A stretch of 64,000 nt of DNA, from NCBI RefSeq assembly GCF_036711975.1, contig NC_091970.1, positions 3,727,501 through 3,791,500 on the forward strand. Direction: 5' to 3'. Source of the stretch: Onthophagus taurus (taxonomy: Eukaryota; Arthropoda; Insecta; Coleoptera; Scarabaeidae). This document shows positions 32,269 to 37,415 of this stretch, piece after piece (within the stretch, counting starts at the first letter, position 1; each line of letters begins with the position of its first letter). A program made the position numbers and the translations under genes. The notes beneath the pieces were generated by a model. That model had not been told where the DNA came from, did no database searches, and saw nothing but the letters and a program-made list of their open reading frames with translations.

Positions 32269-34137
32269 AACGTTGTTACACTTAGTAGATTAGTCACGTT
32301 TTTTTGTACTGTGTATTTAAAGATCGTAAAGAAATAAATTATTTTATCACAAACCTTATTTAATTTTATTTATTTTAAAAAAAACAGGATTAAAATGCAG
32401 ATTTAATTTTAAAATTGTAGGCAACCAATTTTACAACATTGCTTACAATAAAAATTAAATTATTAAAAAACACGGCAGATATTTATAAATTGATACGAAA
32501 TATTAATCAAAAAATTAGTGTTTCTAAATTTGTAAGTATAGATGAATAAAAAGTAATTTTAATAAGTTGTTTAAATTTTTTCAAAATTCATAATAAATTC
32601 CAATGGTTTGCGCCATCCTGTGGCGCCATCTCAAGCTTTCAATCAGTATTATGGATTTATCTGTCATTTTTTTTAAAAACACTCTCGCGCAGCTCGCTCA
32701 TGTCTAATAATTAATGAATTTATTGATGGAAAATCGATTTAGTTTAATTCGATAATTCGAGAAGTTATTTTAAATTTTAATTCGTGATTTTAGGTTTCGA
32801 TGTGAACTGAAGGATTCAGTTTTGTTCGGTTCTATTCGGATGGAATCGGGCTTTGTTGAATAATGCAAATTATTTGCAAATTTTTGAGGTTAGTATTTTT
32901 GGGTTAAAAATGTTTATTTTTTTAATTTTTTTATTTCTTATGTGTACATAGCCGTGGTACAAATCTCGTTGCATACAATATTACAATAAATTTTCAAAAT
33001 TATTGGTCAGATGATAATAATAAATGTACAATAATAATAATTTAACAATATCATCTAATTAATAATTGGCTAATTACGTTTACTTTATCTTTAATATCCT
33101 TTAGGAAACATTTAGCGCTCATTTAATATTGATCCCACTATAATTTATTTTTTTTCTTTAATATTTATTACGGTAAACAGCGAAGTTTATTTATCTGTTA
33201 TTCGATAAGTCTTTCATGCATCTACAATCTATTTAAAAAAAAAACCTCAAAAAAGTTGTGATATAAAGATAGAAATAAAAATGTAGGAGGAAAAGATTTT
33301 TTTTAGGCCGTTGTATTTAATAATTTTTTAATTTAAAACGTTTCTTTTAAATCACTTAATTTATTTATGACTAAACTTTTGTTTAACGCTTCATTTAAAA
33401 TTCTATAATTTAACTTATAACGTTTGTATATTATAAAGTTATCATCAGTCTTATTATTATTTTCTTTTTAAATAGGATTTACTAGCAACATTGAAGCGAA
33501 ATTACTTCAATTTGGTTTATTTTAAACAACAGCCAAGAGTTTCAAAAGGAAAGGAAATACAGGAAGTACTCTAGTTACATATTTTAATTTTTTTTACAAT
33601 TCCTTGGCGAAAATTAAGATTTAAATAAGTAAATAAATAAAAAGGAATGTATTTAACAGTTACAATATGTTAAACATTTTGTTATTGCCTATTTTTTTTA
33701 ATTATAAATGATTCATTTAAAAAAACAGCAACTGTGTTCTATAGGCACCATATTTAGAGAGAGAAGGCCGGTTATTTGAAGAGATATGATAGAGATATAC
33801 AATTTATTAGTCTCTCAAAAGAGAAGTGAAATGATTTTTAATTTTTTTAAAATTAATTTTAATGTCATGAAGAGATCACAAGCGATTTTGAACGAACCTA
33901 AGCGTTCTTTTAAATTAAAAAACTTTTAAATTTTCTCGTTTAGCGTTCTAATGACAAAGGATTTTACAAATATCATACAATCTTAGTAATTGACATACTC
34001 AGTACACAGTCAGATATTAATATCTTAACTATTTCTTTTTTATTTTAGGTTAGGTCCTTATCAGCTAATTTTTTTGTGTTAACAAATTTTTTTTGAGTGT
34101 TAAAAGCAAAAATTGTTCATGATTCAAATTAATATCT
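32269..34137. other. Intergenic region
   Basis: AT-rich, with a degenerate AATAAT run near 33020. TAGGCAACCAATTTTACA at about 32420 recurs near 61219. No coding frame is supported. Confidence 0.45.
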
Positions 34138-35916
34138 TCACAACAACTCAAACTGATTACCCATATCGAGTATAACGCTGTTACACCCCAATTTTTGTTG
34201 TTGACTTGTCGGCGGTAAAGGGGGTGTTGGAATAGTCGGTAAATTTCCTAATTCCTCATCTTCGTCTTCGTTCTGAATCAATAATTGCTGCTGTTGCTTT
34301 CCGGATAACGCAATGTCTCCTACAATGACCGTAGTTGTCGATGAGTTGTGTTGTTGCCGGCACGCAGCGACAATGTGCATCGGAGACGTTCCCGTCATAA
34401 CGAAATTGGTGATTCCCGCCAAACCGGAAAGATCCGCCGTGCCGTTTGCCGTCGCCGGAACTAAAAGCGACGTGTCTTTTTTGCCCTCCAGCACGTGGAC
34501 GACTCCGCTGTCGAAAATGATGTCTTCCTCGACTGCGGAAACAACGTTGTTGTTCTCTGGGGATCCAACGTGTTGTTGTTGGTGCTGGGGGGCGTGACGT
34601 CAAAGGTTTGCGGTATCGCTTTCTGATGCTTCCACCAGTGGCCAATCGCTTTCCGGACTTGAATCTCCGTTTGATGAACTTGACGATTCGGTCTAAATTA
34701 AAACAAGAATCAAAAAGTTATTATAATTAAAACAGTTTAATTAATATAGTTATTTTCTTTTTAGTTTAAAAGGTTACCCCGAAATTCTTGAAATAGAGAC
34801 TACTCAGACTACTGATATCGATGTAATGTCTCGCCCGCAAGCGACCTCGGCTTACTTAATCTTGATATCGTTGAAATCTGGTTAGTTTTTGCATGCGATA
34901 TAGTATCAATATAACTAGGTCATCTTAGATTCCTGGGGATAATGTTTTGTCCGCGGAAATCGGTTGAATTAAATAATATTAATTTTATAATACTTACCAC
35001 ACTGACTGGAGTCAGAGATCTTAAAGGAGGTGTTGGTGGCCCCCTTTTGAGCTTTGGTCAGGCCACCGTTCCTCCAGTTTCTGGTTCGGGAGACCAACAA
35101 TTATCGGACAACCAGCATCCGATGACGACAGTTACTAATCCGATTAGTAAAGCTAACATTATGTACACCTCCGCGTTTCCTAAAAGATGAATTTTGAAAA
35201 AAAAATCAAATTTTTTTTCATCTTACCTAATTGTTTTCGTATACCATTTCCCATTTTGCTCCTCCACAAGCTATTAATTAACGTTGGGTCGGCTCGTCTC
35301 CATTCCCTCCAACCGGCCCAATTTCTGCGAACGACGCCAACTCCCCCACCGGAAGCCATCATCACACCTGGTGCTGGCGTGCTTAAGGTAGGATTCGATG
35401 GGCCGTGAGCGTTTCCTTGCGGTGACGGAAAACTTGTAACTTAAGAATTGAGTTAATGAGTATGGATCAATAAATAGGTTAGCTTTGGGATTTTAGCATC
35501 GTTAATTTTGGAATTGGAAACCATGTTATGTAACTGACAATTAGTGAAGTTGCATTGATCGGTACCCCTTTGGGTTTCGACCTCCCTACACTTTGTAAAC
35601 TCACGAACACGGTAACGTAAATGAATGCACGTAAATTGCATTATCTTAAGAGGAGTTGAAATGGGAAAACGAGTAATAAGAGAAAGAGATACAAGTTATG
35701 TTTTGGTGGTCGGGTCGTTTTGAAAGTTTTATGTTTCAATTGCTCGAAACACTACCGGAAAAGGGGTCAGTGAATTTTTTATTTTCCCCCGCCTGGAAAG
35801 AACTAACGAAGAACACTTATTCTTTCCTTGGATTGAAGTCAAAATGAACCTATATCTATCTTACCGATGATAATGATGAAGGTTAGTATTAAAAACAGCA
35901 AGAAAATCCAGCCCAT
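34138..35916 (-). CDS. Membrane protein with two in-frame TGA-C codons
   Basis: Four exons: 35916-35865, 35439-35227, 35179-34998 and 34692-34138, 1002 bases, one continuous frame of 334 codons ending in TGA. I do not recognise the family. Seen: signal peptide (MGWIFLLFLILTFIIII); a Pro/Ser/Gly-rich ectodomain; a Trp/Arg-rich stretch (RRNWAGWREWRRADPTLIN); a TM helix (VYIMLALLIGLVTVVIGCWL, about 94-113); then a cytoplasmic tail. Codon 129 (35060-35058) and codon 180 (34602-34600) are TGA, each followed by C. Sequence after each stop still looks coded: PKLKRGPPTPPLRSLTPVSV, TESSSSSNGDSSPESDW, then EEDIIFDSGVVHVLEGKKD and a Gln-rich, acidic end. Exon phases agree across the whole frame. Possible products are 128, 179 or 333 residues. 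Either this gene uses readthrough, or there are unseen splice forms, or the sequence has errors. Confidence 0.6.
34600..34602 (-). promoter_or_regulatory. Second internal TGA (TGA-C context)
   Basis: The stop is within the last exon, in the context CTT TGA CGT. Downstream the frame stays open for 153 further codons with acidic and Gln-rich content. Confidence 0.5.
34812..34870 (-). repeat. Isolated copy of the GGTCGC hairpin repeat
   Basis: On the minus strand it reads TTAAGTAAGCCGAGGTCGCT followed by TGCGGGCGAGACATTACATC, matching the core of the tandem units at 36.9-37.4 kb. It lies in the last intron of the membrane-protein gene. Confidence 0.6.
35058..35060 (-). promoter_or_regulatory. 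First internal TGA (TGA-C context)
   Basis: The context is GCC TGA CCA. It ends the 128-residue form. An exon junction follows 60 bases later, so termination here would place the stop upstream of a splice junction. Confidence 0.5.
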
Positions 35917-36169
35917 CCCTTTGCGTCAGCAACTCGGTCGTTCCTGCGCAGGTATCATATCTCGGTGGAAGAAATATTTGAGTAGATCTTTGAGAAATCC
36001 CTCCGTGACTGATGAATTATTGAGAGACGCTGCCGTTGAAGTATCTAAAAAAACCACAAAAAGATTTAATGATTTAAAGTTTGTTTTAGAAAGAATTCAA
36101 GTGGAAAATAACCGAAAAGAAAATAGAACATTACCAGGCGTAGATGAAATGATTTTCACGGAGAGATAA
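35867..36169 (+). CDS. Uncharacterised small basic protein, possible exon
   Basis: A 100-codon frame ending in TAA at 36169, with AATAAA about 75 bases later. Content from residue 29 on (IISRWKKYLSRSLRNPSV, DELLRDAAVEVSKKTTKRF, LKFVLERIQ) looks coding, with codon choice like the neighbours and a predicted amphipathic helix. A CAG/GT boundary at about 35952 could be a splice acceptor, in which case only the later part is real. It overlaps the first exon of the minus-strand membrane protein head to head. I do not recognise it. It may be a chance frame. Confidence 0.35.
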   Translation: MIMMKVSIKNSKKIQPIPLRQQLGRSCAGIISRWKKYLSRSLRNPSVTDELLRDAAVEVSKKTTKRFNDLKFVLERIQVENNRKENRTLPGVDEMIFTER

Positions 36170-36683
36170 GTGTAATTTAAAGGACGATTTGACCCTTTTT
36201 CTCCTGCAATTTTCTGTTTACGACTTGTTCCCCAAAATATCTCAATAAATTTTTCAAAATCGCTTTTACTACTTTTAAATATTGATTAATGCGATGTTTT
36301 TCGAACTCATTTTTATTGCCTGCTCAGGTAAACGTCCATAAATCGAACTAAAACTGAAATCTTTATGACACCGAAAACTCAATTTTAAATCAATATTATG
36401 TTTTTTTAGATTAAGTAATCTTAAGACGGATTTGATAGTTTCGTATCTCTTTGTTAAAGGTTACGTGCTACCGAGAAAATTAATGTACTGCGACTGACCG
36501 TTCGATCCAACGGAGCCAACAACTGCAAAGGGATTTAACACAATGCAGTAAGTTTTTAAATCATTCATTTTTACCCTAACACTAAATCATCTAAATGAAG
36601 TGTAAAGAGGTATCGCTTAATAATTTTTAATACAAAAAAAGATTCCTTTTATATTTCCATTCTTGAAGCTTTACGATCACCGT

Positions 36684-36899: not shown

Positions 36900-37415
36900 A
36901 AGATAATGAATTGCCTCAGTCGTAATTGCACTTTTCATCCACAATTAAGCCGAGGTCGCTTGAGACCGTTACCACAATATAGTATATGAAAAGATATTGC
37001 ACTGCCTCGTCTATAATTGCACACTTTTATGCACAGTTTTCGACTATAATTAAGCCGAGGTCGCTCGCGGCCGAGGCATTTCATTAGATACCACATTAAT
37101 ATTGTATCTAAAGAGATATTGCACTGCCTCGTCTATAATTGCACATTTTTCGGTTATAGTTAAGCCGGGGTCGCTTGCGGCCGAGGCATTTCATTTGATA
37201 CTACATTAATATAGTATCTGAAGGGATATTGCACTGCCTCGTCTATAATTACACACTTTTCATTTATAATTAAGCCGAGGTCGCTTGCGGCTGAGGTATT
37301 TCATTTGATACCACATTAATATAGTATCTGAACAGATATTGCACCGCATCGTCTATAATTGCATACTTTTATGCATATTTTTCGTCTATAAATAAGTAGA
37401 GGTCGCTTGTGGCAA
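36900..37415. repeat. Tandem array of ~110-bp units
   Basis: Five units start near 36943, 37048, 37159, 37268 and 37391, each with a version of TTAAGCCGAGGTCGCTTGCG. The core GGTCGC-TT-GCG(G/A)CC is a near-perfect hairpin, followed by GAGGCATTTCAT, GATACCACATTAATATAG and ATTGCACTGCCTCGTC. GATAC...GTATC gives a second short inverted pair. The array lies between two 187-bp direct repeats. Confidence 0.8.

Follow-up and report, generated by a model that had tools for sequence, protein, structure and literature searches.

The locus at positions 34138 to 35916 of the window, by which we mean the whole analysed stretch of 64,000 nucleotides of Onthophagus taurus DNA, holds a reading frame that is interrupted by two TGA codons and continues beyond both. 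This raises the question of whether ribosomes could read through the two stops in succession, or whether the stops are avoided by splicing, are marks of a decaying gene or an incorrectly joined model, or are recoded in another way. Double readthrough of two leaky UGA-C codons, as put forward in the initial annotation, is in our view the best explanation for this candidate single-pass membrane protein gene, and we hold it tentatively, at somewhat less than even chances.

Gene model and splice sites

Reconstruction of the spliced frame joins four minus-strand exons into 334 codons (1002 nt). Their phases agree, and the only in-frame interruptions are TGA-C at codon 129 (TGA1) and codon 180 (TGA2); the final stop, codon 334, is a TGA. 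On re-reading the sequence, the annotated four-exon frame, its phases and both in-frame TGA-C codons were correct to the base. The annotated length of exon 4 and its openness before and after TGA2 were borne out by coordinates and frame, and a UGA-C context was present at both stops. The features of the model are as follows.

35916-35865, minus strand: exon 1 of the initial annotation, 52 nt, hydrophobic, 17 codons, ATG at 35916; doubtful
35439-35227, minus strand: exon 2, 213 nt, coding-like, 5' boundary uncertain
35179-34998, minus strand: exon 3, 182 nt, with the transmembrane helix, TGA1 and a further 20 codons up to the donor
35060-35058, minus strand: TGA1, codon 129, TGACCA, 60 nt from the end of exon 3
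34692-34138, minus strand: exon 4, 555 nt, open on either side of TGA2
34602-34600, minus strand: TGA2, codon 180, TGACGT, read from the sequence
34599-34141, minus strand: second extension, 153 codons, from codon scoring and shuffles

The first extension comprises the 50 codons from TGA1 to TGA2, of which 20 lie in exon 3 (codons 130-149) and 30 in exon 4 (codons 150-179). Splice sites were scored with approximate matrices that were written from the insect consensus and not trained on this genome. By these matrices, the donor of intron 3 (34997-34693; GTG/GTAAGT) scores 6.5 and its acceptor (TTTAATTTAG/ACC) 1.7, the 95th percentiles on the minus strand being 1.1 for all GT and 2.2 for all AG dinucleotides. 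Intron 3 appears well defined by good splice sites, with a strong donor and a usable acceptor, and the exon 3-4 junction is a predicted one.

Coding signal along the frame

Two codon models were used, a window model trained on 30 ORFs of the window and an independent model trained on 14,377 codons from 53 kinase and SH3 loci in other parts of the genome. The second extension (codons 181-333) scores 34.2 bits in frame with the window model and 30.6 bits with the independent model, compared to -36.6 and -17.9 (window model) and -46.6 and -3.1 (independent model) in the other frames. Among 3000 dinucleotide shuffles of this segment, 0.8% were open and none was both open and as high-scoring. Both values are at the lower end for coding sequence: 34.2 is below the coding mean of the window model (42.4), and 30.6 is low for coding windows of that length in the independent model (mean 58.9, 5th percentile 28.4). 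On the basis of codon usage, the second extension is taken as coding.

Three other readings of this region were tried. Coding on the opposite strand was dismissed since the best antisense frame over the second extension reaches 24.0 bits with 4 stops, against 34.2 bits in the window model. For a frameshift in place of TGA2, another frame nearby looks plausible by eye and scores no better, with values of 0.8, 0.2 and -1.7 for the three frames of codons 176-195, which speak neither for nor against such a shift. Joining exon 2 directly to exon 4 leads into an Arg-rich frame that scores -17.9 (window model) and -3.1 (independent model) over the second extension. This second frame of exon 4 (34256-34717, minus strand) is also open for 153 codons and is negative over the second extension.

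For the first extension, the in-frame scores are 7.8 (window model) and 12.1 (independent model), and those of the other frames -1.5 and -2.6 (window model) and 1.0 and -10.5 (independent model). The window-model score is reached by 6.7% of shuffles, and 1.5% of shuffles are open and as high in the independent model. Among stop-free 50-codon windows outside the 33 long ORFs of the window, which overlap each other and may contain short exons, 15-20% match the score of the first extension. Its exon 4 part (codons 150-179) scores 7.2 in the independent model. The 20 codons from TGA1 to the exon 3 donor score 4.9 bits, which is above the 95th percentile of shifted-frame windows (3.9); 7.2% of shuffles are open and score as high, as do 16-17% of the stop-free windows. 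These 20 codons bear more directly on the crossing of TGA1 than any other part, since, as far as seen, they are readable in this frame only by that route. Judging from these scores, the first extension is probably coding.

Upstream of TGA1, the 40 codons 89-128 of exon 3 score 17.7 bits (window model) and 11.9 bits (independent model). In exon 2, codons 19-43 score 7.5 bits in the independent model, with 0.7% of shuffles open and as high. Codons 44-88 score 6.7 bits in frame in the same model, where frame 1 is higher (10.3); frame 1 of exon 2 holds 5 stops.

The 5' end

Exon 1 is not coding-like, with -1.6 bits in the window model and -4.7 bits in the independent model, where coding windows of 17 codons have a 5th percentile near 0. 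Its donor scores 3.0. The acceptor of exon 2 is poor, its score of -3.7 being close to the median for AG dinucleotides. The true 5' end of the gene probably differs from the initial annotation because exon 1 is not coding-like and is antisense to a more coding-like plus-strand frame. For this reason, the annotated products of 128, 179 and 333 residues are doubtful. With a start at the two Met codons 44-45, the three products would comprise about 85, 136 and 290 residues.

The plus-strand frame (35837-36169) is open for 110 codons and scores 22.3 bits; 3.7% of shuffles reach this score and 0 of 2000 stay open. The score is uneven, with -6.4 across 35921-36000 (window model). An AATAAA starts 75 nt beyond its stop. 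In the genome the frame matches itself alone (one match), and the Pfam search gave DUF4110 at E 0.12, below the cut-off. It may be an exon of an unlisted plus-strand gene.

Predicted protein

A transmembrane helix was found in exon 3 at about codons 93-112, with a 19-residue hydropathy above 1.6. The region before the helix (codons 44-92) is basic, with 9 K/R against 3 D/E; an acidic stretch of 15 residues, with 0 K/R against 3 D/E, follows the helix. According to the positive-inside rule, the basic flank lies on the inner side of the membrane. Because of the basic N-terminal and the acidic C-terminal flank, the rule favours an orientation with the N-terminus inside and the C-terminus outside, in which the extensions would be lumenal or extracellular. 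The flanking charges thereby cast doubt on the cytoplasmic tails of the initial annotation. If exon 1 acted as a cleaved signal peptide, the opposite topology would result, contrary to the charge rule.

The second extension contains two possible N-glycosylation sites. FoldIndex values are -0.07 for the first and +0.09 for the second extension, so that disorder of the extensions is not established. An AlphaFold prediction of exon 4 from the single sequence was uninformative (mean pLDDT 36). The Pfam search yielded nothing above the cut-off (DUF3040 at E 0.009 and 0.086, LEA_3b at 0.27), and the PDB sequence search returned either no match or matches at chance level (best E 0.48). No relative or family was found in the collections searched, which by their descriptions consist of prokaryotes and viruses, and the missing relatives therefore say nothing on conservation.

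Sequence features around the stops

A six-frame scan of the window identified 49 stops flanked by an open frame of at least 30 codons on the 5' side and at least 50 codons on the 3' side. When sorted by the lower of the two flank scores, TGA2 ranks about 13th of 49, level with the 12th to the number of digits given. Among the higher-ranked stops, some resemble, by eye, ordinary intron-exon boundaries, and a stop before a coding-like frame is thus by itself no sign of readthrough. Less usual are the twofold occurrence of TGA-C, which makes up 3.3% of the stop tetramers on both strands of the window, the phase-true junction between the two stops and the sole CAGCAGCA of the window; stop context, junction and 8-mer are all post hoc observations. 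Two features were located from TGA2 onwards.

34286-34293, minus strand: 8-mer CAGCAGCA in the second extension, its sole occurrence in 64 kb on either strand
34500-34602, minus strand: predicted RNA hairpin in the 3' half of the stretch from TGA2, -28.2 kcal/mol

The stability from TGA2 corresponds to a z of -2.97, with 2 of 200 shuffles as stable, and that after TGA1 to a z of -0.65 (50 of 200 shuffles). Among insect readthrough genes, a stable RNA structure within 100 nt is found in a minority. In the fly and mosquito readthrough regions of PMC5100048 (section 12), no 8-mer is more common than CAGCAGCA; the region counted there runs only to the stop after the readthrough stop. As the 8-mer of this locus sits after TGA2, it is relevant to the second stop only.

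Proposed double readthrough and alternative explanations

In a double readthrough, most ribosomes would terminate at TGA1. In a fraction of them, a near-cognate tRNA would place an amino acid at the UGA and decoding would run on through the exon 3-4 junction as far as TGA2; fewer ribosomes still would reach the final TGA. The expected products are a short form and forms that are 51 or 205 residues longer (UGA-inserted residues counted), with a Ser/Pro-rich, acidic tail behind the single transmembrane helix. We infer expression, the splice pattern, the crossing of either TGA and any function of the tail. This reading is supported by an in-frame coding signal that persists past both stops in two separately trained codon models, by TGA-C at both stops, by CAGCAGCA in the second extension, by the predicted hairpin after TGA2 and by the lack of a SECIS match. 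Against it, the evidence for coding in the first extension is modest, and 7.2% of shuffles equal the part in exon 3; the score of the second extension is low for coding sequence, and TGA2 is ordinary among the stops of the window with regard to its flanking open frame. Of the annotated double readthrough, frame, phases, stop contexts and the coding-like character after both TGAs have held up, firmly for the second extension and weakly for the first. It is a long shot that the two leaky UGA-C codons in different exons act as a three-tier readthrough switch on the membrane protein. In such a switch, readthrough would set both the length of the extracellular or lumenal tail and message stability, which could be affected because, with termination at TGA1, an exon junction would remain 60 nt further on.

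Splicing offers a way around the stops and is the leading alternative, which we consider somewhat less likely than double readthrough. The second extension would then be normal coding sequence of a splice variant lacking one or both TGAs, and the form with the TGAs would be another isoform or not be made at all. The following sites could serve such forms.

34586-34585, minus strand: rival acceptor AG (exon from 34584), in frame, 15 nt past TGA2, score 2.6
35066-35065, minus strand: rival donor GT, starting six nt upstream of TGA1, in frame with the acceptors for 34692 and 34584
35005-34998, minus strand: rival 8-nt micro-exon (acceptor 0.7, donor 6.5), joining exon 2 to exon 4 in phase

The acceptor for 34584, located 108 nt past the start of exon 4, outscores that of exon 4 (2.6 versus 1.7), but its tract is C-rich and T-poor. 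Single-intron forms open to the final stop exist, for example from 35066 to 34584. However, the donor at 35066 is weak compared to the donor at 34997 (0.0 versus 6.5): it lacks the +4 A and +5 G, and among all GTs it ranks above the 90th but below the 95th percentile. As 78 combinations with a single intron stay open up to the final stop, some fair score is expected by chance, and none comes near intron 3 (best 2.9 versus 8.2). The route from exon 2 through the micro-exon to exon 4 is in phase and bypasses TGA1, yet it yields a form without the transmembrane helix. The bypass routes also lose all or most of the first extension, which is itself coding-like, if weakly. A normal stop 60 nt before an exon junction is unusual, and the position of TGA1 at this distance, atypical of a normal stop, speaks for splicing. 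The pipeline described in section 22 of PMC5100048 generally assigns a candidate to splicing if its second ORF contains an exon break or a good acceptor and the part before that point is non-coding. At the present locus, the stretch from TGA1 to the donor is weakly positive (4.9 bits over 20 codons), and the one from TGA2 to 34584, with 5 codons, is too short for a judgement.

The two TGAs could also be recent substitutions, an individual's allele or base errors of the assembly in a once-open frame, so that the gene would be nonsense-bearing or decaying. The single genome copy found and the position of the second extension near the low end of coding windows (30.6 at a 5th percentile of 28.4) are compatible with decay. 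We consider it unlikely, given that 334 codons with two stops contain not one frameshift, that both stops are TGA-C and that the splice sites of intron 3 are intact. Improbable, too, is a mis-joined model in which the second extension, perhaps along with codons 150-179 of the first, is part of a different transcript that has an upstream exon of its own, or in which translation ends normally at TGA1 and a 3' UTR with a chance open frame follows. The model is probably partly wrong already because exon 1 and the exon 2 acceptor are weak, and long open frames behind stops were found elsewhere in the window. A wrong join at intron 3 is at odds with its phase and good sites, and the score of the second extension is very unlikely in shuffles (0 of 3000). 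Moreover, a search for cassette exons in the interval from exon 2 to exon 4, with score minima of -2 for acceptors and -1 for donors, gave 24 combinations, of which 4 were in phase and open, all four of them consisting of exon 3 sequence.

Both selenocysteine insertion and A-to-I editing of UGA to UGG require the UGA codon seen here; as explanations they are unlikely, with a very small probability for this class of recoding as a whole. The neighbour least favoured by ADAR is a 5' G, and the target A is preceded by a G at both TGAs, which argues against editing. With respect to selenocysteine, an Rfam scan of 33000-36600 (E up to 1) gave no match to a SECIS element and a single unrelated weak match. 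In addition, PMC2500217 reports the loss of selenoproteins in the species it studied, a wasp, the honey bee, the silkworm and a beetle.

Comparison with known readthrough genes

Double readthrough is an established class, and its assignment to the present locus is plausible. PMC4528330 lists 22 FlyBase genes with double readthrough in Drosophila and two triple cases, PMC5100048 gives 35 double readthrough candidates in Anopheles, and PMC3840789 reports one predicted and one unpredicted double case from ribosome footprints. The double-readthrough literature found dealt with Drosophila, Anopheles or yeast only. In the single-genome test of PMC5100048, readthrough was abundant in most insects, with the exception of Tribolium castaneum and Apis mellifera. 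Section 11 of the same study gives TGA as the first stop in about 61-76% and a 3' C in about 49-63% across the fly and mosquito readthrough groups. The UGA-CUAG context, described there as triggering readthrough in four human genes, is found at neither TGA1 (TGACCA) nor TGA2 (TGACGT).

The locus shares several features with the conserved readthrough genes of Drosophila and Anopheles (PMC5100048), in particular with those read through twice: second and third ORFs that are in frame and coding-like, two stops of the TGA-C type, the 8-mer CAGCAGCA and the lack of a SECIS match. It differs from them in that its second ORF spans an intron and a rival acceptor follows TGA2; furthermore, those genes carry an evolutionary signature, whereas the present locus was read from a single genome. 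Drosophila Oamb, vvl and Ets65A (PMC4528330) are likewise modelled with more than one readthrough stop per locus. Unlike the present case, their annotations rest mainly on comparative analysis (PMC4528330). An in-frame UGA is shared with the Drosophila selenoproteins BthD, SelG and Sps2 (PMC4528330), from which the locus is set apart by its two UGAs and the lack of a SECIS match. In flies and mosquitoes, genes with conserved readthrough have been mapped individually; for other insects, PMC5100048 gives estimates based on single genomes. If confirmed, a double readthrough gene with an intron-spanning second ORF would be a good test case. If splicing proves to be true, the locus shows how easily a single-genome reading takes an alternative exon for readthrough.

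Copy number and repeats

By its gene content, judged by eye, the window has the look of insect nuclear DNA. Searches of the own genome (assembly of 290.8 Mb, 33 contigs) with the exons detected no paralogue and pointed to a single copy. A match in C10 (E 0.18, 41% over 34 residues) was taken as chance, and nothing similar was seen in the sequence around it. On one contig, a pair of protein kinase matches of near-equal score was noted (C11:1357216-1357812 and C11:1308811-1309407), each with one in-frame TGA within the matched stretch, which could be due to an intron, a pseudogene or another readthrough lead.

Intron 3 contains about 100 bp of a dispersed satellite (34813-34915) with over 300 matches across the genome; the DNA search gave 329 matches in all, and those listed, apart from the locus, all map to intron 3. 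At 37030-37370, a 110-bp unit is repeated in tandem about three times and is, by eye, related to this satellite.
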